A DNA stretch of 17,001 bases from Bacteroidia bacterium (lineage in GTDB: Bacteria > Bacteroidota > Bacteroidia > Cytophagales > Cyclobacteriaceae). A program made the position numbers and the translations under genes. Below the pieces are notes generated by a model. The model did not search any database and had not been told where the DNA came from. It saw nothing but the letters and a program-made list of their open reading frames with translations. Positions 3,960 through 16,605 of the stretch are shown piece by piece (within the stretch, counting starts at the first letter, position 1; every line of letters starts with the position of its first letter). Location: positions 1-17,001 of the forward strand of contig JANXRR010000511.1 of NCBI GenBank assembly GCA_025356795.1, read 5' to 3'.

Positions 3960-4370
3960 CTATTCCGGCAAATATCTTTTCAAATATTCATAACTCCACG
4001 CTCCTCCCAATGCTGCTAGAAATGCAGCAATTGTTACCAACGACCCCGTTCCTATTTGTGCATATAACGGCCCTGGGCACGCACCTGTTAGAGCCCAGCC
4101 AAACCCAAAAATTAAACTTCCCATGATGGTGCCTATATGAAAAATCTTCGTGGGCATTTGAATTGTCTCACCTTTTATTGTTTTTAACTTAAGTTTTCTG
4201 ATGACCAAGAGCGACAACGCTCCTACCGGAATGGCTGTCATAAAAATGCCAAACATGTGAAAGCTCTCGAAGCGAAACATCTCTTGCATGCGGTACCACG
4301 AAATAGCTTCGCCCTTTGTTAGCACAAAGCCAAAGAATGTTCCGATGAGAAGGTATTTTATGTTCTTCAT
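3960..4370 (-). CDS. YeeE/YedE-family transporter half, DUF6691 type
   Basis: A 136-residue membrane protein with about four hydrophobic helices and the signature TGACPGP (C98 in the loop), as in the C-terminal half of YeeE/YedE proteins. Family members such as TsuA import thiosulfate or other sulfur compounds, passing the substrate along conserved cysteines in the membrane channel. In many bacteria the transporter is split into two genes, and this is the second of such a pair. It begins 38 bp after the first half (4409-4969) on the same strand. The substrate is inferred only from the family, because no rhodanese or other sulfur gene lies alongside. The C-terminal end abuts the convergent fadD stop codon. 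Confidence 0.85.
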   Translation of the reverse strand: MKNIKYLLIGTFFGFVLTKGEAISWYRMQEMFRFESFHMFGIFMTAIPVGALSLLVIRKLKLKTIKGETIQMPTKIFHIGTIMGSLIFGFGWALTGACPGPLYAQIGTGSLVTIAAFLAALGGAWSYEYLKRYLPE

Positions 4371-4408
4371 TTAGCTGGTTGTTAACGGTTTCTTTGTTGG
4401 AATGAAGG

Positions 4409-4969
4409 TTATAAATCAAGGATGTAGGGCAATACAAATCGGGAGAACAAAATGCCACCCAAAAAGAAAGAAGCCGTTGCCAACAAAGATGGCCACTGCA
4501 ATGCGGACAGCCCAAGTATGCCATGCCCTGAAGTGCAGCCTCTTGCGTAGCGTGTTCCAAAGCCAACCATAAATCCACCAGCAATCATTAACAATAGCCC
4601 TTTCAAAGTAACCAGAGAAGACCAATTGAAAAGTTCTTGAGGCATAAAACCTTGCGGATCATTAAGCCCATGAGATTTTAAGAAATCAATTGTGGCTGTT
4701 GAAATTGCGACAGGATTGGGATTAGCAAACACATATCCGCCAAGGAAGCCGCCAATCAGAACACCTACAACAAACAAGAGATTCCAACTGTCTTTTCTCC
4801 AATCGTATTTTAATGAGGGAGCAGTAGCGGGTATGCAAACTGCACATATCTGGGTAAGCGTGCTTGAGATGCCAAGTTTTTTGTTCCCTAATAAAAGAAG
4901 AATTGGCACGGTAATGCCTATTAGTGGGCCTGCCACATACCAAGGCCACGGTTTATAAAGAATTTCCAT
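4409..4969 (-). CDS. YeeE/YedE-family sulfur-compound transporter half
   Basis: A 186-residue membrane protein, the first gene of a split YeeE/YedE pair. It has hydrophobic helices at roughly residues 11-28, 64-81, 118-138 and 160-183. The family signature RGCTSGHGI has its cysteine at C145, and two more cysteines (C42, C45) lie in ICAVC, in a region predicted to face the membrane. In TsuA-type thiosulfate transporters such conserved cysteines contact the substrate. Together with the downstream 136-residue protein it would give the full inner-membrane unit. The ATG start at 4969 has no Shine-Dalgarno. The 86 bp upstream are shared with the divergent proC gene and must hold both promoters. Confidence 0.88.
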   Translation of the reverse strand: MEILYKPWPWYVAGPLIGITVPILLLLGNKKLGISSTLTQICAVCIPATAPSLKYDWRKDSWNLLFVVGVLIGGFLGGYVFANPNPVAISTATIDFLKSHGLNDPQGFMPQELFNWSSLVTLKGLLLMIAGGFMVGFGTRYARGCTSGHGILGLSALQWPSLLATASFFLGGILFSRFVLPYILDL

Positions 4970-5853: not shown

Positions 5854-5866
5854 GGCTTTACTCCAC
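5845..5866. terminator. Hairpin across the stop codons of proC and the convergent operon
   Basis: The arms are GTGGGGTAA (5845-5853) and TTACTCCAC (5858-5866). They pair over nine positions, including one G-U pair in the plus-strand RNA, around the four-base loop GGCT. The left arm ends with the proC TAA and the right arm begins with the last codon (TAA on minus) of the transglutaminase gene. No U-run follows on either strand, so it is not a textbook intrinsic terminator. Its position suggests a two-way termination or 3'-end stabilising role (inference). Confidence 0.4.
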
Positions 5867-6736
5867 CCTATTCACATCCACCTTCACAGAAATAGTTTGC
5901 CCACCAGAGCTAAAGATAATTCCTTTGATGGGAGCAACATCAAAGTAATCGCGGCCAAAGGCAACGGTAATATGTTTGTATGATGGCAGCAGGTTGTTGG
6001 TAGGATCAAACTCTACCCAACCAATATCGGGGAAGTAAACCGCTACCCAAGCGTGAGAAGCGTCTGAACCTACTAATTTTTCTTTACCTGCTGGCGGAAG
6101 AGTTTCTATGTAGCCACTCACATAGCGGGCAGGTAAACCCATATTGCGCAAGCAAGCAATCATTAAATGGGCAAAATCCTGGCAAACTCCTTTTCTCAAC
6201 TTCAGTACCGATTCGACAGGTGTGTTTACTGTTGTGAAGCCTGGCTTGAACTCAATGGAGCTATAGATTTTCTGCATGAGCGATTGACACCCATTCCAAA
6301 GCGTTGCGCCATCTGCAAAACAATCTTGGGCAAAATTCTTTATCACTTCGCTATAAGGAACATGAAGAGATGGCAATGTGTATTGTGCTACATCCGCATT
6401 CAAATCGCCCTGCTTTGCTACTTGATTTTTAACATCATCCCACAAAACATAAGAACTAAAAGCACGGTCGGCATTCACTCTGTTCTGTATGTCAACAATG
6501 CTTTCTGAAATAATCTCAAGTTGCGAATGCTCTTTGTAACTTGAGATAAACAGAATGGTGTTTCCAAAAAAATCTGTGCGATACACTTGCTCATCGGGTG
6601 TTGGTGAAATCTTTACTTCACAGGAAACACAAAGTTGATGATCTCTCGTAAGTGGAACCAGACACAGTCTGTTATGTCCTGTGCTTACTGTTTCCTGATA
6701 ATGATATTCTGTAATATGTTTGATCTTATAGCGCAT
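5858..6736 (-). CDS. Transglutaminase-like cysteine peptidase (N-terminal Bact_transglu_N plus core)
   Basis: A 292-residue protein with a bacterial transglutaminase N-terminal beta domain (about 1-85) followed by a transglutaminase core. The catalytic triad is complete: C185 in GVCQDFAH, H228 in SHAWV and D244 in EFDPTN. There is no signal peptide, so it is expected in the cytoplasm. Bacterial members of this family are thought to act mostly as peptidases or amide-bond hydrolases and not as protein cross-linkers. It is the last gene of the minus-strand operon, starting 2 bp after the stop of the ATP-grasp/alpha-E gene. That coupling suggests it processes the amide product of the two ligases in the operon, for example by removing or trimming a peptide tag (inference from the published gene-neighbourhood prediction). 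Confidence 0.9.
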   Translation of the reverse strand: MRYKIKHITEYHYQETVSTGHNRLCLVPLTRDHQLCVSCEVKISPTPDEQVYRTDFFGNTILFISSYKEHSQLEIISESIVDIQNRVNADRAFSSYVLWDDVKNQVAKQGDLNADVAQYTLPSLHVPYSEVIKNFAQDCFADGATLWNGCQSLMQKIYSSIEFKPGFTTVNTPVESVLKLRKGVCQDFAHLMIACLRNMGLPARYVSGYIETLPPAGKEKLVGSDASHAWVAVYFPDIGWVEFDPTNNLLPSYKHITVAFGRDYFDVAPIKGIIFSSGGQTISVKVDVNRVE

Positions 6737-6738
6737 GT

Positions 6739-9303
6739 CTACACTTCAAATTGAAAACCTTCTTTGGTGTTTTGGTGACTATAAGTGGTGTGGCTGAAAT
6801 AGGTAGAACTTAACTTTGCTGAGATAACAGAAATCTGTCGTTGCAATTGTTCACAAAATTTATCTAACTCCTCACGTGAGCCCGTCTCTTCATCAGCCTT
6901 TGCCAGTACTTCAATATTCATCAAACGCACTTGGCTGTAACATTCAAATACTAATTTTGAAATTTCATTGTCGTTTGTGTTGCCGTCTTTATGTGCCAAA
7001 CTCCGCGAATATTCTAGCAAACCTTCCAATTGTGAAAATATGGATGTCGGATTTTGACTATTTAAAAACAACAAGTCTATAGTTGGCACGATGTTGAGTG
7101 TAGTTCTGTAAACCGACCGATAAGAAGAGAGATTTTGATTGCTTAATAAAACAGATTCCAACAATTGAAACTCAACACTTTCTTCACGTTGATGAGTAAG
7201 CATCGACTTAAATTGAGCTAGCTCCATCAACATTTCTTCAATCAATTGCCCTGTTCTATACATCGTTCTCCCATCGCTGCGATACATGCTTGAGCGAGTC
7301 ATCTCTGTAAAAGAAAGAAGGCCCGCTGTTAATTGATCGAGCAAGGTGAATACATGACGAATGCCCTCAGGTTCTACGGCCGCAATTCTTCTTTTCACGT
7401 TTTCTATTTCATCAATGATCCGCCAACTGTCTACTGTCCATCGGTCGCGTGCTGCATACATGGCCTTCAGTAAGTTATTCAACGTGAATAAAATGCTTCC
7501 TGCCCTTTCGGGATTGCAGATAAGTTGATGTATTTCAAGTAATGGATTGCTCAACTCTTCGTCTGCATCTTCAACAAATCCCGGATACGTGTCAGTGATG
7601 TGAGTTACTGTCTTTAATAGTACCCGAAGTGACTCTGAATCATTTTCATTATTGCTGAATCCTGTTTGAGTAAGGTTTCTTAATACAATTCGGATGAAGC
7701 GTGAGGTGCGGATAACACGCTGTGTATATCGGCCAACCCAAAATAAATTTTCGGCTGCGCGACTTGGCAAGACAGCCTTACGCTTCATATCGGGAGCTGA
7801 TTGTTTTCCCGAAAGGGTAGTTTCCTTAAAGGTAGCTTCAACCCAAGTGTCCTTTGAAATTCCCCCATCCTGATTGGAAACAAGAAAACTACCTTTCTCG
7901 GGTGAGCATCTGGTGAGGCCTCCACGCATCATTTCATACCCTTCATCCTTACCGGCCACCAAATAAGATCGAAGAACTGTAAAACGCGGTTCTAATTTTT
8001 CTTTGGGGAATACAGGGGAAGTAGAAAACTGTACTTCCTCCTGGCCCACATACTTATAAGGTTCAAACTTTATTCTTCTGATCAACTCTTCTTTTTGAGA
8101 TCGAGAAAGATGACTACCCATCACAGTTTTAAAACCACTTAACCGCTGAGTGCTTTTTATCACTAGTGAATCAATATGGTCAATTACATAATCCATTTCC
8201 TTTTTCTGACCACACCACCACGTGGCAATCATAGGGATTATCGGTTCTTCGTTAAGAAAATGTTTGAACGCTCCATGCATAAAGGCCATCAAGCCCGTGT
8301 TTTCAAGAATGCTGCTTCCCAAGGGATTGGCAACAGCCACATTACCTTTGCGAACAGCTTGCAGCAAACCGGGAATGCCAAGTTGTGAGTCTTCCCTAAG
8401 TTCCAGTGGATCACAAAAAGTGTCATCCACTCTTCGAACAATAACATCTACCTTTTCTAAACCATCTACCGTTTTTATCCACACAAAACTATCGCGCATG
8501 ATGAGGTCTTCGCCTTGAACAAGTGTGATGCCCAGATAAGAAGCAAGGTAGGCGTGCTCAAAATAGGTTTCGTTTCTTGGTCCTGGCGTTAACAAAACGA
8601 TGCGTGGATTCTCTTTGCCTTGTGGGGCAATCTGAATCAGAGCCTGCATCATGTTGTTGAAGAAGCCACCCAACTTGGGCACATGATGATGTTGAAATAA
8701 TTCTGGTACAATGCGGTTAAGCGCGCTTCTGTTTTCCAATGCATAGCCCATGCCCGATGGAGCCTGAGCCCTGTCCTTAATTACCCAAACTTTATCATCT
8801 GGTCCGCGCGAAAGGTCTGCGGAATAAAGAGTGAGTTGATGCTGGCCCGGCAATTTTATTTTATCGCATGGACGCAAAAAACCAGGATGCGAATAGATAA
8901 GCTCTGGCGGAATAATTCCATTCTTCAACAACGTTCTCTCTCCATACAAATCATTCAGAATTTTATTGAGCACATAGGCACGTTGCTTCATACCCCGCTC
9001 AATGATTCGCCAATCGACAGCCGAGATAACCAAAGGAACTGAATCTAGCAACCACGGCCGATTGAGTTCATTTGTATCACCATACACATTGTAGGTTACT
9101 CCATTCTCTTGCAATAATTTTTGTAATTCTTGCTGTCTTATTTTAAGTTCATCAACACCCAGATTTTCAATGTTGGTGAGCAGTTGCTTCCATGATTCCT
9201 TCGCACCTTCATTAAAGCGAAAGCATTCATCCAATACAGAGGCATGTGAAAAATAGCCATCAGTAAGGCTGCGTATTGAATGGGTTTGTAGTTGGTTATC
9301 CAT
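6739..9303 (-). CDS. Circularly permuted ATP-grasp ligase fused to alpha-E domain
   Basis: An 854-residue fusion. Residues about 80-490 are a circularly permuted type 2 ATP-grasp domain, with RPWLLDSVPLVI (82-93), DRAQAPSGMGYALENR (177-192), LLTPGPRNETYFEHAYLASY (237-256), DVIVRRVDDTFCDPLELR (286-303) and NPLGSSILEN (326-335). From PSRAAENLFWVGRYTQRV (513-530) to about residue 835 it is the all-helical alpha-E domain. ATP-grasp enzymes of this type join a carboxylate to an amine through an acyl-phosphate. The alpha-E function is unknown, but it occurs with this ligase. In many genomes the two are separate genes, and here they are one chain. The gene follows the PIN gene by 4 bp and precedes the transglutaminase by 2 bp, so translation is probably coupled. 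The substrate is unknown. Confidence 0.92.
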   Translation of the reverse strand: MDNQLQTHSIRSLTDGYFSHASVLDECFRFNEGAKESWKQLLTNIENLGVDELKIRQQELQKLLQENGVTYNVYGDTNELNRPWLLDSVPLVISAVDWRIIERGMKQRAYVLNKILNDLYGERTLLKNGIIPPELIYSHPGFLRPCDKIKLPGQHQLTLYSADLSRGPDDKVWVIKDRAQAPSGMGYALENRSALNRIVPELFQHHHVPKLGGFFNNMMQALIQIAPQGKENPRIVLLTPGPRNETYFEHAYLASYLGITLVQGEDLIMRDSFVWIKTVDGLEKVDVIVRRVDDTFCDPLELREDSQLGIPGLLQAVRKGNVAVANPLGSSILENTGLMAFMHGAFKHFLNEEPIIPMIATWWCGQKKEMDYVIDHIDSLVIKSTQRLSGFKTVMGSHLSRSQKEELIRRIKFEPYKYVGQEEVQFSTSPVFPKEKLEPRFTVLRSYLVAGKDEGYEMMRGGLTRCSPEKGSFLVSNQDGGISKDTWVEATFKETTLSGKQSAPDMKRKAVLPSRAAENLFWVGRYTQRVIRTSRFIRIVLRNLTQTGFSNNENDSESLRVLLKTVTHITDTYPGFVEDADEELSNPLLEIHQLICNPERAGSILFTLNNLLKAMYAARDRWTVDSWRIIDEIENVKRRIAAVEPEGIRHVFTLLDQLTAGLLSFTEMTRSSMYRSDGRTMYRTGQLIEEMLMELAQFKSMLTHQREESVEFQLLESVLLSNQNLSSYRSVYRTTLNIVPTIDLLFLNSQNPTSIFSQLEGLLEYSRSLAHKDGNTNDNEISKLVFECYSQVRLMNIEVLAKADEETGSREELDKFCEQLQRQISVISAKLSSTYFSHTTYSHQNTKEGFQFEV

Positions 9304-9307
9304 ATAA

Positions 9308-9748
9308 CTACTTACTTAGCCAAAGAGTGTAAAGCTGATCGGTTGTAATGAAGTTCGTAAATCCCTTTTTAGCCAGTCCTTTCATTAGCATTTTATCTCC
9401 ACTCCAAATTTTGCATTTGCAGTGTTTTGAAAAGGCAACATAATGTGTGTCTTTAGGATCAATATCTGAAACTAATTTTCCTGTGGCGATCCAGGTAGAA
9501 TGCTTTATCTGCTCTTCAGAAATAAAAGCAATGTCTTTACAAATTTGAAATTCTGCTTCACGAACTTCGTCTATTGTCATTCCCGAAATTTTACTCAGCT
9601 TTAAATAGTGCTTATAAATTTCTTTCCTCAGAAAATCAGGTGCTATGAAGTCAAAATGCATTTTTGAATTAATAAGTAGATCAGCTATTTTTCCATCGGC
9701 ATTTAGTATTTCACTAAAAACAATGTTTGCGTCAACAATTATTTTCAC
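9308..9748 (-). CDS. PIN-domain ribonuclease-like protein, probable VapC-type toxin
   Basis: This 146-residue PIN domain has the acidic metal-binding residues in the right order: D6 in IIVDANIVFSE, E43 in FLRKEIYKHY, D100 within DIDPKDTHYVA, and D118 in WSGDK. PIN proteins are Mg2+-dependent RNases, and as toxins they cleave tRNA, rRNA or mRNA. The start is a GTG at 9748 that overlaps the TGA of the upstream small gene by 4 bp (GTGA), the usual toxin-antitoxin coupling. The arrangement antitoxin-then-toxin fits a type II system. It sits within the ligase/transglutaminase operon, 4 bp before the ATP-grasp gene, so it would be expressed with those genes unless it has its own promoter. Confidence 0.88.
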   Translation of the reverse strand: MKIIVDANIVFSEILNADGKIADLLINSKMHFDFIAPDFLRKEIYKHYLKLSKISGMTIDEVREAEFQICKDIAFISEEQIKHSTWIATGKLVSDIDPKDTHYVAFSKHCKCKIWSGDKMLMKGLAKKGFTNFITTDQLYTLWLSK

Positions 9749-9945
9749 TTAATAAACCGCTTAGCATTCTTCTTCCACCACGAAGCATTTACTTCGTCAG
9801 CAAGCTTATTAATATCTGATTGCTTGGGCTTGCTTTTAGAAGTTGCCTCCAAATACTTCACGTAATCGATCATTCGTTGAAGGCCAAAACTATCAACAGA
9901 AGTTGAAACCGTAATAGTTATTTGATTATCTTTTGTTCGCTCCAT
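9745..9945 (-). CDS. Small antitoxin-like protein paired with the PIN protein
   Basis: A small protein of 66 residues from the ATG at 9945 (68 from the ATG at 9951, 75 from a TTG at 9972). I prefer 9945 because AAAGG lies eight bases before it, one of the few Shine-Dalgarno-like sites in the window. The N-terminal part (QITITVSTSVDSFGLQRMID) could form a strand and helix. The lysine-rich middle (KYLEATSKSKPKQSDI) and the tryptophan-containing end (ADEVNASWWKKNAKRF) look like a tail that could wrap a PIN toxin. I recall similar short proteins before PIN genes in Bacteroidota, but no named DNA-binding domain is evident. The antitoxin role rests mainly on the overlap with the PIN gene. Confidence 0.75.
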   Translation of the reverse strand: MERTKDNQITITVSTSVDSFGLQRMIDYVKYLEATSKSKPKQSDINKLADEVNASWWKKNAKRFIK

Positions 9946-9988
9946 TAACATTGCCTTTCTTTTAGTAATCAAAGGTATTGAACATTAT

Positions 9989-12900
9989 TCAGAACTGTCT
10001 CAAATCTAAAGTACGTGGATATTCCGGACTTATTTTCAATGGTGGCGGATCAAAATTTCTTGGTGTTTGATTCGGCTCTAAATAGCGGGTGGCAACACTA
10101 AAACTTTCGGATGGTGTGAAGGCTCCTTGTGTATGTCCTTGTGTCCAGAATCGACTTATCCTGCGGCCTTCCGCTTCGTATGAATTTACCGGGAAACTGT
10201 CATAATTTCTTCCACCCGGATGCGCCACATGATAGGTGCAACCTCCAATGGCACGGTGATTCCAGGTGTCTACAATGTCAAAAATCAGCGGCACATCTTT
10301 ACCTAATGTAGGATGCAATGCGGATGGTGGTGTCCATGCCCGGTAGCGAACCCCTGCTACATATTCTCCTTTCACATCCGTAAACTGCAACGGCAGCGGA
10401 ACTCCATTGCAGGTAACCATATATCTTTCCAAATTAAAATTCTTCACTTTAACCTCAACGCGCTCTACAGATGAATCTACAAAGCGGGCTGTTCCGCCTT
10501 GGGCAGCTTCCTCACCCAGCACATGCCAGGGTTCAATGCCCATGCGCACTAGAAGCTCCATGTCCTGAACTTTTATTTTCCCGTAAAGAGGAAAGCGAAA
10601 CTCTAAAAATGTTTCGAGCCACTCTAGTTGAAAAGGATATCCCTGCTCTTGCAGATCGCGCACCACTTCGGCTAAGTCTTGCTGCACATAATGAGGCAGC
10701 ATAAATTTGTCATACAACTCTGTGCCCCATCGCGTAAGCTTATGTTGATACGGTTTGTTCCAGAATCTGGCAATCAAGGCACGTATCAAAAGCAGTTGTA
10801 CAATGCACATCTCTTTGCTTGGCGGCATATCAAAGCCACGGAATTCCAGTATGCCCAATCTTCCCGTTGAGCTATCAGGCGAATACAGCTTGTCTATGCA
10901 AAACTCTGCTCGATGCGTGTTGCCTGTAATATCAATCAACAAGTTTCTAAAAATCCTATCCACCAACCAAAATGGAATTTCGCCCTTATCGGGGATTTGG
11001 CTGAATGCTATTTCAAGCTCATATAAAATCTCTTGCCTTCCTTCATCTACACGAGGTGCTTGACTTGTTGGCCCAACAAATGATGAAGAAAAAAGATAGG
11101 ACAAGCCAGGATGATGTTGCCAATAGGTAATAAGACTTCTCAACAAATCAGGCCTGCGAAGCAACGGACTATCGGATGGAGTTATGCCGCCAATGGTAAT
11201 GTGATTGCCTCCGCCTGTACCAGTGTGTTTCCCATCCAAATTAAACTTCTCTGTACTTAACCGGCTAAGTCTCGCTTGCTCAAAAAGTATGTCGTAATTT
11301 TTTAGCAACTCATTCCAGCTCTTTGCAGGATGTATATTAACTTCCAACACACCCGGATCAGGTGAAAGTGAAAGTTTAGTAACACGATTATCAAAAGGAG
11401 GGTCGTATCCTTCAATCACTACCTTTAAATTCAATTTAGCGGCTGCTGCTTCAATGGAAGCAAGCAGATCAAGGTAATGCTCTATATACGTGAGTGGAGG
11501 CATAAAGAAATAAATCTTGCCTTCACGCACTTCAATGCACAAAGCAGTTTTGATAGTATAAATTTGAAAGGTGCTATCAACTTCTTCCTTCAGCTCTTTT
11601 TTTACTTTTGGTTTATATTCACCCTCCTGTTCTTCCTCTGCATAGGGTTGCTGATAAAATTCGTTTGGGAGATTTTCTTCTGGTATTGCTTTGTCGTATC
11701 GATTATTAGCCTTTGCTTGGAAATCTTCTAGCTCAGGAAGCGATTCGAAAGTGCTTCGCTCCACTTTGCGTTGAAGTTTTGTTTCGCTTGTATAAGCCAA
11801 CGATTTTAATGGAAGCCTGAGGCCAATGGGTGAATTGCCTGGAATAAGTGTGAGTTGATTATTCCTAAAAGGCCAATTGCACGAAATCCAGCGGCTGTTC
11901 CAATGGTTCCATTCCATAGGTATCACATAGCCAGCATCTTCGCCTAATCCTTTGGTTAATAACTCTGCCAGTTTCTTCCGCTCAAGCGAATCATTCAAAT
12001 TTACTTTATATGGATCAATGTTTACAGGCACTTTATTCTCTTCCCACAAAAAATAAAACACATCCTCTTTAGCAGGATGAATGTGCTCTTCCGGAATAGT
12101 TAAAAACTTAGTAAGCTCATGAGCTATCCTTTTTGCATCCGCTATGGTGTAGTTCGAAGATGTCTCATCTAAATCTAGTAGCTGATCATTTTTCCAAATC
12201 GGTGCGCCATCTTTTCGCCAATAGGCAGAATACTGCCAACGTGGCAATGGTTCGCCCGGATACCACTTTCCTTGACCCTTATGAATATATCCATTAGGCG
12301 CAAATGAAGTTTTCAATTTTTTAATAAGCTCTGCGCCAAGCTTTCGCTTTTGTGGTCCATCCGCGCCCGTGTTCCATTCCTTAGCCTCCATGTCATCCAC
12401 GGAAACAAAGGTTGGCTCTCCACCCATTGTTAATCGCACATCACCCTGTTTTAAATCTTCTTCTACTTGATTGCCGAGAGCAATAATACGAGCCCATTGC
12501 TCTTCTGTGTAGGGTTTTGTAACGCGTGGATCTTCATGGATTCTAGTAACTTCATTTTTAAATGAGAATGTAACTTGACAAATATCTGTCAACCCTGTAA
12601 CTGGTGCAGCACTAACAGGATCGGGCGTGCAGCAAAGTGGAATATGACCTTCACCGGCAAATAGACCTGACGTTGGGTCTAGTCCAACCCAACCTGCACC
12701 TGGAATAAAGACTTCAGCCCAAGCATGTAAATCTGTAAAATCTTTTTCTGTGCCCGATGGCCCATCCAATGCTTTGGTATCTGCCTTCAATTGGATTAAA
12801 TAACCAGAAGCAAAGCGAGCCGCCAAGCCCAACTGACGAAGCACTTGAACCAACAACCAACCCGAATCGCGACAGGAGCCGCTTTTTAAACTTAACGTAT

Positions 12901-13414
12901 CTTCGCATGTCTGAACGCCAGGCTCAAAGCGAACAGTATATCGCGTGTTCTTCCACACTTGTTGATTCAACTCTACAAGAAAATCGATGATTCGTTTCTT
13001 TTTAGAAATATCTATCGACTTAATCCATTGCTGCAACAGCGGCCCGTTCTCCGTTACTTCAAAATAGGGAAGCAACTCCTTCTTAAGTTGGGTATCATAA
13101 GCAAATGGAAAATCATCTGCATACTTTTCTACAAAAAAATCAAACGGATTGATAACAATCATGTCGGCAATCACTTCCACTTCAAAACTCAGCTCCGTAG
13201 TCTTTTCAGGAAACACGACACGCGCCAACATATTCCCGAAAGGGTCTTGCTGCCAGTTGATAAAATGATTGGCTGGAGTAATCTTTAATGAATATGCCAG
13301 GATGGGAGTGCGGCAATGCGGAGCTGGCCTTAACCGAAAAGTATGGGGCGATAAATTTACTGCGCGATCATACGCATAACTCATCTGATGACGAATGGCA
13401 ACTTTGATAGACAT
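9989..13414 (-). CDS. Transglutaminase fused to circularly permuted glutamine-synthetase-like ligase (DUF2126)
   Basis: A 1141-residue two-enzyme fusion and the first gene of the operon. Residues about 1-80 are a Bact_transglu_N domain and 145-260 a transglutaminase core with an intact triad: C181 in SGSCRDSG, H230 in DLHAW and D246 in GLDPTSG. From about 320 onward it is DUF2126: DVRLTMGGEPTF (325-336), GKWYPGEPLPRW (382-393), DPGVLEVNIHP (685-695), HTGTGGGNHITIGG (729-742) and ILEFRGFDMPP (854-864). Iyer and colleagues assigned this region to a circularly permuted glutamine-synthetase-like COOH-NH2 ligase. The glutamates in LEVNIHP and LEFRGF and the GGGNH segment are the likely metal/ATP site (inference). 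A charged Glu/Lys-rich linker lies at about 570-612. No signal peptide is present. ATG start with no Shine-Dalgarno. Both ligation and amide cleavage are thus encoded in one chain. Confidence 0.92.
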   Translation of the reverse strand: MSIKVAIRHQMSYAYDRAVNLSPHTFRLRPAPHCRTPILAYSLKITPANHFINWQQDPFGNMLARVVFPEKTTELSFEVEVIADMIVINPFDFFVEKYADDFPFAYDTQLKKELLPYFEVTENGPLLQQWIKSIDISKKKRIIDFLVELNQQVWKNTRYTVRFEPGVQTCEDTLSLKSGSCRDSGWLLVQVLRQLGLAARFASGYLIQLKADTKALDGPSGTEKDFTDLHAWAEVFIPGAGWVGLDPTSGLFAGEGHIPLCCTPDPVSAAPVTGLTDICQVTFSFKNEVTRIHEDPRVTKPYTEEQWARIIALGNQVEEDLKQGDVRLTMGGEPTFVSVDDMEAKEWNTGADGPQKRKLGAELIKKLKTSFAPNGYIHKGQGKWYPGEPLPRWQYSAYWRKDGAPIWKNDQLLDLDETSSNYTIADAKRIAHELTKFLTIPEEHIHPAKEDVFYFLWEENKVPVNIDPYKVNLNDSLERKKLAELLTKGLGEDAGYVIPMEWNHWNSRWISCNWPFRNNQLTLIPGNSPIGLRLPLKSLAYTSETKLQRKVERSTFESLPELEDFQAKANNRYDKAIPEENLPNEFYQQPYAEEEQEGEYKPKVKKELKEEVDSTFQIYTIKTALCIEVREGKIYFFMPPLTYIEHYLDLLASIEAAAAKLNLKVVIEGYDPPFDNRVTKLSLSPDPGVLEVNIHPAKSWNELLKNYDILFEQARLSRLSTEKFNLDGKHTGTGGGNHITIGGITPSDSPLLRRPDLLRSLITYWQHHPGLSYLFSSSFVGPTSQAPRVDEGRQEILYELEIAFSQIPDKGEIPFWLVDRIFRNLLIDITGNTHRAEFCIDKLYSPDSSTGRLGILEFRGFDMPPSKEMCIVQLLLIRALIARFWNKPYQHKLTRWGTELYDKFMLPHYVQQDLAEVVRDLQEQGYPFQLEWLETFLEFRFPLYGKIKVQDMELLVRMGIEPWHVLGEEAAQGGTARFVDSSVERVEVKVKNFNLERYMVTCNGVPLPLQFTDVKGEYVAGVRYRAWTPPSALHPTLGKDVPLIFDIVDTWNHRAIGGCTYHVAHPGGRNYDSFPVNSYEAEGRRISRFWTQGHTQGAFTPSESFSVATRYLEPNQTPRNFDPPPLKISPEYPRTLDLRQF

Positions 13415-13421
13415 GGCAACG

Positions 13422-13510
13422 AATTTGAAAATGTGTCAATTTGAAAATGTGTTGATGAAGAAGTCATTCATTGATGAATGATTTGATTTTCAAACGATCA
13501 CCTTTTCAAA
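13422..13510. repeat. 16-bp-period TTTGAAAA repeats in two inverted halves
   Basis: The unit AATTTGAAAATGTGT occurs at 13422-13436 and again at 13438-13452, a period of 16. Two further TTTGAAAA cores occur on the other strand, read as TTTTCAAA at 13487-13494 and 13503-13510, also 16 apart. The outer and inner pairs share the same centre (about 13467). Between them is a separate inverted repeat, TCATTCAT-TG-ATGAATGA (13464-13481). It lies directly upstream of the minus-strand operon start at 13414, so it could be an operator or a cruciform-forming control region (inference). Confidence 0.6.
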
Positions 13511-13782
13511 CTGATGATTAAGGTATTGTTATTTTTAGAATAAGGGAAGGAAATAAATTAATTTGGGATGTAAATACGAATGCAATCGAATGATTGAGTC
13601 TATTTGAAATTTGCTAAGGCATTAACATTCTTATGGGATAAATTTCTCTACAGTAAGGATTAAAAACCAATCCACAACTTTCTAGGGCAGTTGCTACCAG
13701 TGAGGGCTCATGAAGCTTATAATCAAAAAAATTTATACTCAGTTTGGTCAAAGAGAAAATCAGTGAAGTCGAATGATCAGGA
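13511..13782. other. Rest of the spacer between uvrA and the ligase operon
   Basis: An AT-rich non-coding stretch downstream of uvrA and upstream of the operon on the minus strand. I see no credible gene, no RNA gene and no GC-rich hairpin followed by a U-run to end uvrA transcription. I also searched the minus strand for an exact TANNTTTG -7 box and found none. The operon promoter must lie in 13415-13782 or further upstream but cannot be placed. Confidence 0.4.
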
Positions 13783-16605
13783 TTACAATTTATCGCGCAA
13801 ATACTCAGCAGTATATCCCTTACCTTTTTTCACCATGTCTTCAGGTGTGCCTTCAAATAAAAGGTTGCCGCCTTTCTTTTCACCGCCTTCGGGGCCGAGG
13901 TCAATAATCCAATCGGCACATTTTATCACTTCCAGGTTATGCTCTATTACGAAAACAGTGTGGCCCTCATCGACTAACGCATTGATGGCCTTCAATAACT
14001 TTGAAATGTCATGAAAGTGTAAGCCTGTGGTTGGCTCATCAAAAATAAAAAGTATGTGCTCCCTATTTTCCGTAGATTTTTTGCTGAGGAATGATGCCAG
14101 CTTCACACGCTGAGCTTCCCCTCCACTGAGTGAATTTGAAGATTGCCCAAGCTTTACATAGCCCAAGCCAACCTCAAACAACGGGTCCAGTTTATCATGA
14201 ATGGGTTTTCTGTCGCGGAAAAATTCTAACCCTTCTTCCACAGTCATGTCAAGTACGTCAGCAATACTCTTGCCTTTATATTCCACTTCGAGCACTTCTT
14301 GTTTAAATCTTTTTCCGTGGCAGCTTTCACAGGTTAAAAAAATGTCTGCCATAAATTGCATCTCCACTTTTATCTCACCCTCACCTTCACACGTTTCGCA
14401 ACGACCGCCCTCCACGTTAAAAGAAAAATGAGATGGCTTATACCCTCTTTGTTGAGACAACGCCTGGTCGGCATACAACTGCCTGATGGCATCATACGCC
14501 TTCACATAACTGATCGGGTTTGACCTCGAAGATTTTCCAATTGGGTTTTGATCTACAAATTCTACCTGCGTTATTTTATTGATGTCTCCTTCGAGGCGAT
14601 CATACTTGCCTGGGGTTTCGGCAACACTGCCGTGCAATCTTCCTAACGCAGGATAAACGATTTTTTTTATCAATGTCGATTTTCCGGAACCACTTACTCC
14701 TGTTACTACAGTGAGCACGCCCAAAGGAAATTTTAAAGAAAGGTTTTTTAGATTGTTTTCACGGGCTCCAACTAAATTGATAGCATCTTTCCATTTTCTT
14801 CTATGCGTTGGAATGGCAATTTTCTCCTTTCCCGTAAGGTAATCTGTGGTATGTGAATTAACGTTGCCATTCATTTGATTAATAGTTCCTTGAAAAACAA
14901 GGTTGCCACCATGAGAACCGGCATCAGGGCCAATGTCGATTATCTGATCGGCAGCACGCATAATCTCTTCTTCATGCTCAACTACTATAACGGTATTACC
15001 AAGGTCACGCAGAGATTTTAATACTTCGATCATCTTAGCTGTATCGCGCGGATGCAAGCCTATGCTTGGCTCATCCATAATGTACATGCTACCTACCAAC
15101 GAGCTGCCTAACGAGGTGGCCAACTTAATCCTTTGAAATTCACCCCCCGAAAGGGTAGAGACTACACGGTTGAGAGTGAGGTAACCCAATCCAACCTTTA
15201 CCATGTATTCTAACCTTGATTTTATTTCGGTCAGTATTCTGTCAGAAACTTTCTTTTCGTAGGGGGGAAGTTTTATCTGTTGAAAATGAACGAGTGCGTC
15301 TTCAATTGGCAGAAGCACAAGGTCGGTAATTGAGACTTTCTCTATTTTTACATACGAAGCGTCTTTTCTCAATTTCGTTCCTCTACAATCGGGGCAGGTA
15401 GTTCTTCCGCGAAAGCGCGAAACCATTACCCTATATTGTATTTTATGTGATTGAGATTCTATGTGTTTAAAGAAACCATCGATGCCACTAAAATATTCGT
15501 TGCCCTTCCATAATAGCTCTTGTTGCTCTTTGGTAAGTTCATTGTATGCACGATGCACCGGAAAATCGAACTTGATGCCATTCTTCAGCAAAGGCTTTTG
15601 CCATTCACTCATGGCCTCGGTGCGCCAGGGAGCAATAGCACCTTCATATACAGATAGACTTTTATCGGGAATAACTAAATCATGATCAATGCCAATAACT
15701 TTACCAAAGCCTTCGCATGTTTGACAAGCGCCAAACGGGTTGTTAAAACTAAAGAAGTTAACGGATGGCTCGGTAAACAACACGCCATCCAATTCAAACC
15801 GATCGGAGAAAGGAGTTTTCTCTTTACCCTCCACATAAATTAGGCAATCGCCATGTCCTTCAAAAAAGGCGGTTTGAACGGAGTCTCCTAATCTAAATGT
15901 TAAATCTTCATCTGTGGCATTTACCGCAGCGCGATCTATCAATATTTCAAGCACATCACTTTTAATAAGCTTTTTCGCTGTATTTATTGTTTCTTCTATG
16001 AAAGCAACATTGCCATTGATTAACACTCGCGTAAAGCCCTTACTTAATAGGAGATTTAATTCATCAACTGCTTTTCTTCCCTTCTCGATTTTGAGAGGGC
16101 ACGCAATCATCACCCGAGTGCCTTCTTTTAATTTGTTGATGTAATCCACTACGTCTTGCACCGTATCGCGCTTTACTTCTTTTCCGCTTATCGGTGAAAG
16201 TGTTTTACCAATGCGTGCATACAGCAATTTTAAGTAATCATAAATCTCCGTAGTTGTGCCAACAGTGGATCTGGGATTTCGTGTGTTTACTCGCTGCTCA
16301 ATTGCAATGGCAGGAGAAACTCCTCGAATGTAATCTACTTCTGGCTTTTCCATACGGCCAAGAAATTGGCGAGCATAAGAGCTTAGGCTTTCTACATACA
16401 TGCGCTGGCCTTCTGCAAAAAGAGTATCGAATGCCAGAGAAGATTTTCCGGATCCAGACAGTCCGGTAATAACTACGAGCTTATTGCGAGGGATGGCAAC
16501 GCTAAGATTCTTAAGGTTATTTACCCGAGCTCTTTTGATGATAATAAACTCTTTGGCGCTGAGTTGATCTAAAGAAGAGTCAGGAAGCAATTCGTTATTT
16601 AACAT
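13783..16605 (-). CDS. uvrA: Excinuclease ABC subunit A
   Basis: UvrA is the damage-sensing dimeric ATPase of nucleotide excision repair, which loads UvrB onto lesions. The 940 residues match the length of E. coli UvrA. Two ABC ATPase modules are complete: Walker [10 protein letters not shown] (48-56), signature LSGGEFQR (485-492) and Walker [10 protein letters not shown] (510-518); then GVSGSGKST (636-644), LSGGEAQR (826-833) and FDEPTTGLH (855-863). Cysteine pairs are at 294/297, 404/407 and, for the C-terminal zinc module needed for DNA recognition, 736/739 and 759/762. The CxxC pair that normally precedes FSFNNP is missing (FSDRFELDG stands there), so the first zinc module is incomplete. 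I recall this from other Bacteroidota UvrA. No uvrB or uvrC is in the window. A -7-type box lies 8 bp before the ATG. Confidence 0.97.

Follow-up and report, generated by a model that had tools for sequence, protein, structure and literature searches.

Permuted ATP-grasp proteins, a permuted glutamine synthetase (GS)-like ligase, alpha-E and an Ntn peptidase were reportedly predicted by Iyer et al. in 2009 to form a system for peptide synthesis or tagging. To our knowledge neither DUF2126 nor alpha-E has gained a demonstrated function since a role in peptide ligation was predicted for them, and a literature search on "DUF2126" found no paper. The window considered here, a stretch of 17,001 nucleotides of contig JANXRR010000511.1 from a member of the Cyclobacteriaceae, carries on its minus strand a putative operon of this kind, in which a fusion of a transglutaminase (TG) fold to DUF2126 is found together with a fused ATP-grasp–alpha-E protein and a second TG-fold protein. 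DUF2126, the permuted ATP-grasp and alpha-E are shared with the predicted system; the differences are that no Anbu was found in the window genome, that the ATP-grasp of the operon lacks the E-x-N and SGGYG motifs, and that a toxin–antitoxin (TA) pair has been inserted. The operon is ordinary in kind and was reportedly predicted already; it is the insert that distinguishes this instance. The best explanation, which we hold tentatively, is that the operon belongs to an amidoligase/alpha-E/peptidase system running a cycle of amide ligation and hydrolysis, in which one subunit is a pseudo-ligase and the insertion is selfish.

By comparison, the Anbu operon as outlined in two reports (PMC6376114, PMC5666114) consists of ATP-grasp, alpha-E, TG and Anbu genes, Anbu being its Ntn peptidase. 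The first three families are common to the window operon, and a second run in the window genome comprises ATP-grasp (its end only), alpha-E and TG; the window operon differs in possessing DUF2126 and a fused ATP-grasp–alpha-E, and in having no Ntn peptidase. The glutathionylspermidine/trypanothione synthetase-amidases also bring a ligase and an amide-cleaving domain together, and their ATP-grasp fold is related, whereas in the window a TG-fold hydrolase is fused with a predicted DUF2126 ligase, which would work alike without being a member of that family. RimK/RimB and RloABC pair an ATP-grasp with a protease, and the Rlo ATP-grasp is also found with an inactive-enzyme partner (PMC12239564); as that account describes them, these systems involve aspartic peptidases and an inactive TG, whereas in the window the TG triads are intact and it is the ATP-grasp that is degenerate.

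Gene content, catalytic residues and distribution

The run contains five genes, two of which constitute the insert. Its features are as follows (coordinates are window positions):

9989-13414, minus strand: TG–DUF2126 fusion, 1141 amino acid residues (Bact_transglu_N, Transglut_core and DUF2126; TG fold at residues 1-275, DUF2126 at 277-1139)
9745-9951, minus strand: antitoxin-like open reading frame (ORF), 68 residues, with its ATG at 9951 and a stop that overlaps the PIN start by 4 bp
9308-9748, minus strand: PIN_2-domain protein, presumed toxin, 146 residues, GTG start (PF10130, E 5.3e-24)
6739-9303, minus strand: circularly permuted ATP-grasp type 2 (residues ~21-490) plus alpha-E (512-836), 854 residues (PF14403, PF04174, PF04168)
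8770-8778, minus strand: codons 176-178 of the preceding gene, K-D-R, aligned with E-D-N of stand-alone homologues
8116-8148, minus strand: codons 386-396 of the same gene, RLSGFKTVMGS, aligned with the SGGYG region of stand-alone homologues
6796-7770, minus strand: alpha-E domain, in which the "ER" motif is Q528-R529
5858-6736, minus strand: second TG-fold protein, 292 residues (PF08379, PF01841; triad C185/H228/D244)

Pfam domains bear out the three enzyme genes of the preliminary description, which had presented the run as these three alone and had not mentioned the antitoxin/PIN insert (9308-9951). The gaps of 2-4 bp that it placed around the ATP-grasp gene are both real, with 2 bp to the second TG gene and 4 bp on the other side; the latter gap, however, ends at the PIN gene, and the antitoxin/PIN pair puts 685 bp between the ATP-grasp and DUF2126 genes.

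The DUF2126 profile PF09899 matches the fusion at 1292 bits. Both TG triads, earlier described as intact, are invariant, that of the fused domain (C181/H230/D246) in 48/48 aligned sequences and that of the second protein in 28/28. The nearest solved relative of the second TG is 3isr (E 4.5e-14, sequence search), which is also nearest to the fused TG by fold and profile, 6g49 being slightly better by single sequence. DUF2126 is weakly GS-like and possesses acidic, His and Arg residues that are fully conserved; a sequence-profile search from DUF2126 to GS gave no match. The cytoplasmic location proposed for the three proteins would fit, since none of them has a hydrophobic N-terminus.

In the order sample (194 genomes; counts here and below are not corrected for relatedness) DUF2126 was found in 38 genomes, alpha-E in 76, Anbu, by a single-sequence query, in 55, and full-length Peptidase_Mx in 19, short fragments having been dropped (three that reached or barely passed the cut-off and nine that fell short of it). 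Alpha-E accompanied each of the others without exception (38/38, 55/55 and 19/19), as it did in the phylum sample of 395 genomes, where all 12 genomes with DUF2126 possessed it. This co-occurrence, together with a single run (locus L210) of ATP-grasp, alpha-E, TG, TG–DUF2126 and Anbu in which Anbu adjoins DUF2126, upholds the proposed membership in the predicted system. Among the 38 DUF2126 genomes of the order Anbu is present in 31 and Peptidase_Mx in eight. Within the genus 14 of the 62 genomes sampled carry DUF2126 over the cut-off (15 at E 0.001), and Anbu occurs in one, a genome in which no DUF2126 was found. Anbu and Peptidase_Mx were considered as the missing peptidase of the window genome and neither was found, though at 77.5% completeness their absence is not proven; the TG folds are therefore the only searched-for peptidases present, which fits the earlier suggestion that they remove a tag, a possible role.

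The three-gene set recurs in Bacteroidota, Methylococcales, Poribacteria and on an Enterobacter plasmid, and therefore is not a product of chance. The order ATP-grasp, alpha-E, TG–DUF2126 is found in L214, L215 and L179, and is followed in L214 and L179 by the fused ATP-grasp–alpha-E and TG. L179 is the full run at 6597-15794 of the 90-kb IncFII plasmid NZ_CP116251.1 of Enterobacter roggenkampii, with IS6-family transposase genes on either side of the wider region. Synechococcus elongatus, included among the controls, carries both DUF2126 and alpha-E and is a tractable cyanobacterium for work on these families.

Several Methylococcales loci (L079, L085, L090, L093 and others were examined) have a CbiA-like gene and Anbu downstream. 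Those of Chitinophagaceae (L043, L051, L056 and others) have a Peptidase_Mx cluster near ATP-grasp/TG in 10 loci (Pfam-checked for L043), the ATP-grasp–TG pair being antiparallel to DUF2126 where seen. The Anbu matches in G106, G133, G127 and G089 and one copy in G076 each contain one in-frame stop.

The fused ATP-grasp–alpha-E protein

The fused protein matches CP_ATPgrasp_2 at 498 bits and Alpha-E at 174 bits. The E-x-N motif, as E-D-N, is found in 39/39 stand-alone ATP-grasp homologues and in 0/63 fused ones; SGGYG gives the same figures, with one stand-alone homologue reading AGGYG. Both motifs are lost in the window copy, where E-D-N is replaced by K-D-R; the second-operon ATP-grasp of the sister genome (L137 = G249) keeps both. 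The preliminary description had looked to lost ATP-binding or catalytic residues as evidence against its reading, and very nearly such a loss is what was found here, by sequence alignment and fold match rather than by superposition. Because of it the fused protein is most likely not an ordinary ligase; it is probably a pseudo-ligase. The "two ligases" postulated earlier are not supported as stated, and "double ligase" would best be dropped for this operon, with "peptide tagging" kept as one of two candidate products. As the canonical motif is lost throughout the sampled fused clade, we would not take it as defining for membership in the system.

Elsewhere the window genome carries a stand-alone alpha-E (311 residues) and a TG, both identified by Pfam, together with an ATP-grasp gene truncated at the contig edge so that only its end remains (L150); the sister genome carries this second operon whole (L151). 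A copy was counted as fused when it formed an open frame of ~850 residues (up to 1045), or by score and place at contig ends. Genomes with a fused copy also possess stand-alone alpha-E and DUF2126 in 28/29 cases in the order, 13/13 in the genus and 9/9 in the phylum, the last count omitting some weak rows and one genome (G338) whose 844-residue frame has a stand-alone-like score; with overlaps removed the figure is 47/48. In the exception (G193, 84% complete) neither was found. These counts concern alpha-E, a canonical ATP-grasp beside it being seen only at the loci that were read. The converse fails, since 10 of the 38 DUF2126 genomes of the order have no fused copy. Thus the fused protein looks like an add-on to DUF2126 and the stand-alone ATP-grasp/alpha-E.

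With somewhat more reserve we propose that the fused proteins of DUF2126 operons may form a separate, old clade of conserved pseudo-ligases, which has lost E-x-N and SGGYG and gained a WWCG motif of its own. Each would be an obligate partner that regulates a canonical ATP-grasp/alpha-E complex or presents substrate to it, whether that complex is encoded beside the fused gene or elsewhere in the genome, and the two complexes would take part in one amide cycle in nitrogen stress. The fused protein should be treated as a possible pseudo-enzyme regulator.

The DUF2126/ATP-grasp junction

The insert resembles type II TA systems with a PIN toxin in consisting of a small ORF and a PIN gene with a 4-bp overlap, and in roaming within the genus; it differs in that the antitoxin has no family above the cut-off and in its position inside an enzyme operon. 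A start of the second gene inside the stop of the first is a usual toxin–antitoxin layout. For the 68-residue ORF, searches of Pfam, NCBIfam and PADLOC returned no family above cut-off, one Pfam row (E 0.068) falling below it. The conserved acidic residues of the PIN domain are present (D6, E43, D95/D97/D100 and D118). PIN homologues occur in 12 of the 62 genus genomes, the window genome counted, and in the 11 others they occupy 15 places. At 12 of these places a homologue of most of the length of the 68-residue ORF lies just upstream (tblastn, E up to 0.05); of the remaining three, one has a weak partial match and at two none was found by tblastn. None of the 15 coincides with a DUF2126 place. 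The pair is presumed to be a putative type II TA system with a PIN toxin, co-inherited and roaming in the genus.

The junction between the DUF2126 and ATP-grasp genes could be read in 12 genus genomes. Nine have no insert, the genes being about -4 to +11 bp apart (the value varies with the start codon chosen), and three, including the window, have inserts of 533, 685 and 777 bp (685 bp in the window) that are mutually unrelated, being in no order of length the PIN pair, a HigBA-like pair and a GxxExxY element. The last is found in the sister genome G249 (L031 13431-13948), where the gene matches TIGR04256 at 117.5 bits (cut-off 35) as well as PDDEXK_3 and is flanked by two hairpins built from a 26-nt direct repeat; it has the look of a small element, either mobile or associated with palindromes. 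A 15-base core of this repeat has one further occurrence among the loci examined, in L052. In G206 (L156 8220-8892) the insert pairs a HigB toxin gene (PF09907) with an HTH_3 gene, which is HigA-like by place and scores below the NCBIfam cut-off for HigA; in PADLOC the pair matches PD-Lambda-2 A over its whole length and B over the first 120 of 402 positions.

The next junction, from ATP-grasp–alpha-E to TG, has no insert in eight genus genomes besides the window, with 3-19 bp between aligned ends. Where an ATP-grasp gene follows downstream of DUF2126 on its own strand (45 named loci), the first junction spans -4 to 3993 bp, 11 methanotroph loci having a citrate-synthase-like gene there (Pfam-checked for L079 only); at the second junction, with longest-ORF starts, the genes overlap in 35 of 44 loci, are 0-50 bp apart in six and further apart in three. 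Linkage is therefore loose for the TG–DUF2126 gene and tight between ATP-grasp–alpha-E and TG. A scan of the minus strand between 9303 and 9989 listed no terminator-like site, but it performs at chance level, as did the sigma70-type promoter scan. The finding of three unrelated cassettes at one joint indicates insertion tolerance and not a common function, and the junction offers a clean example of one site hit by three unrelated small cassettes. As one part of the explanation tentatively preferred above, the antitoxin/PIN pair would be a selfish cassette without a part in the chemistry, lodged at a junction that tolerates insertions.

Nitrogen, candidate reactions and genomic setting

In Burkholderia cenocepacia H111 the cluster I35_5080-83 consists of DUF404/DUF407, DUF403, TG-like and "large TG-like" genes, is given values of -8.2, -9.4, -9.4 and -6.0, taken as fold changes, in a table of the ntrC mutant, and is counted among the shared sigma54 and NtrC targets (PMC5491218). 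The "large" gene is very likely TG–DUF2126, since the gene order of B. multivorans L181 (ATP-grasp, alpha-E, TG, TG–DUF2126, fused ATP-grasp–alpha-E, TG) matches. Urea-metabolism domains are described as co-varying with domains of the system in marine metagenomes (PMC3597751), and Anbu as going up in Pseudomonas putida under nitrogen limitation (cited in PMC6376114 and PMC5666114). In L179, L181 and L182 the first gene is preceded by a sigma54 match of 9/10; it is unique within the locus in L181, while extra ones occur elsewhere in L179, L182 and other loci, and these matches are only suggestive. Upstream of the window operon there is no sigma54-like site. A role of the cycle in nitrogen stress is probable for some bacteria at least; for the window organism, whose operon has no such site, we infer this role by extension.

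On the preferred explanation DUF2126, as a GS-like domain, would make an amide bond using ATP, and the fused TG domain and the separate TG would hydrolyze or exchange amide bonds via their Cys-His-Asp triads, so that a single chain could both make and break them, for which glutathionylspermidine synthetase/amidase offers a precedent. The canonical ATP-grasp from the second operon would also make amide bonds, and the fused ATP-grasp–alpha-E would regulate, or hold and present substrate, beside the stand-alone ATP-grasp and alpha-E of that operon. The partnership and the direction of the reactions are conjectural, as is catalysis itself. The product may be a protein tag or a small conjugate, two candidates between which the sequence does not discriminate.

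The second of these products underlies a rather unlikely alternative, a small-molecule cycle: DUF2126 and the stand-alone ATP-grasp of the second operon would form a conjugate of the peptide-amine or gamma-glutamyl-amide type as a means of storing or detoxifying amine nitrogen, and the TG folds would release it. A common fold does not show the substrate, as many ligases have it, and the four recurrent neighbor clusters identified by Pfam (citrate synthase, Peptidase_Mx, Anbu and CbiA-like) include no amine gene. We regard it as unlikely that DUF2126 and the fused ATP-grasp, the latter with a changed metal site, are both active ligases which build a peptide tag or attach it to proteins, for the TG folds to remove. 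The fused clade does have its own invariant residues; Lys 277 and Lys 383 are mostly retained, and the ATP-grasp part has diverged little from that of the sister genome (dN 0.064, with dS saturated). Set against these is the loss of E-x-N and SGGYG in all 63 fused relatives and the window copy, and we know of no protein substrate or tag gene for the system. The ATP-grasp of the Yersinia Anbu operon, which frees phosphate from ATP, is encoded apart from alpha-E (PMC6376114) and so supports activity of the stand-alone kind.

It is improbable that the TG folds are instead amide-forming (transamidating) enzymes, with DUF2126 as the source of an activated donor, either amine or amide: TG core triads suit transamidation as well as hydrolysis, but 3isr, the nearest solved relative, bears the label of a putative cysteine protease, which is a name and not an assay. 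Still less probable is a working part for the PIN/antitoxin pair, for example as a guard punishing loss of the operon. The pair does sit between two operon genes and is oriented as they are, and in two more genus mates this junction holds inserts of a nuclease-like or TA-like kind; yet the three inserts are unrelated, most of the readable junctions have none, and the PIN homologues of the other genus genomes all lie away from DUF2126. For further work, the results point to activity in DUF2126 and the stand-alone ATP-grasp before the fused one, under nitrogen limitation; worth following are the junction prone to insertions and the pseudo-ligase clade with its dependency.

The run is preceded upstream by uvrA and followed downstream, on the opposite strand, by proC. 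The closest named relatives of the DUF2126 protein come from Cyclobacteriaceae and other Cytophagales metagenome-assembled genomes (MAGs) and from Chryseolinea serpens, the nearest being that of L031, a "Flammeovirgaceae" pond MAG, at 94% identity. A misbinned contig was ruled out: the UvrA next to the operon is 77-84% identical to those of genus mates with such a copy, except G207 (71%), and no copy of the same kind was found in G196 and G212; the best copies in other families of the same sample reach at most 70%. With 84% identity to the nearest genus mates and 95% to L031, the contig therefore fits its bin. At 3960-4969 the window also contains two neighboring half-size Sulf_transp (YeeE/TsuA-like) genes, each covering one part of the family.

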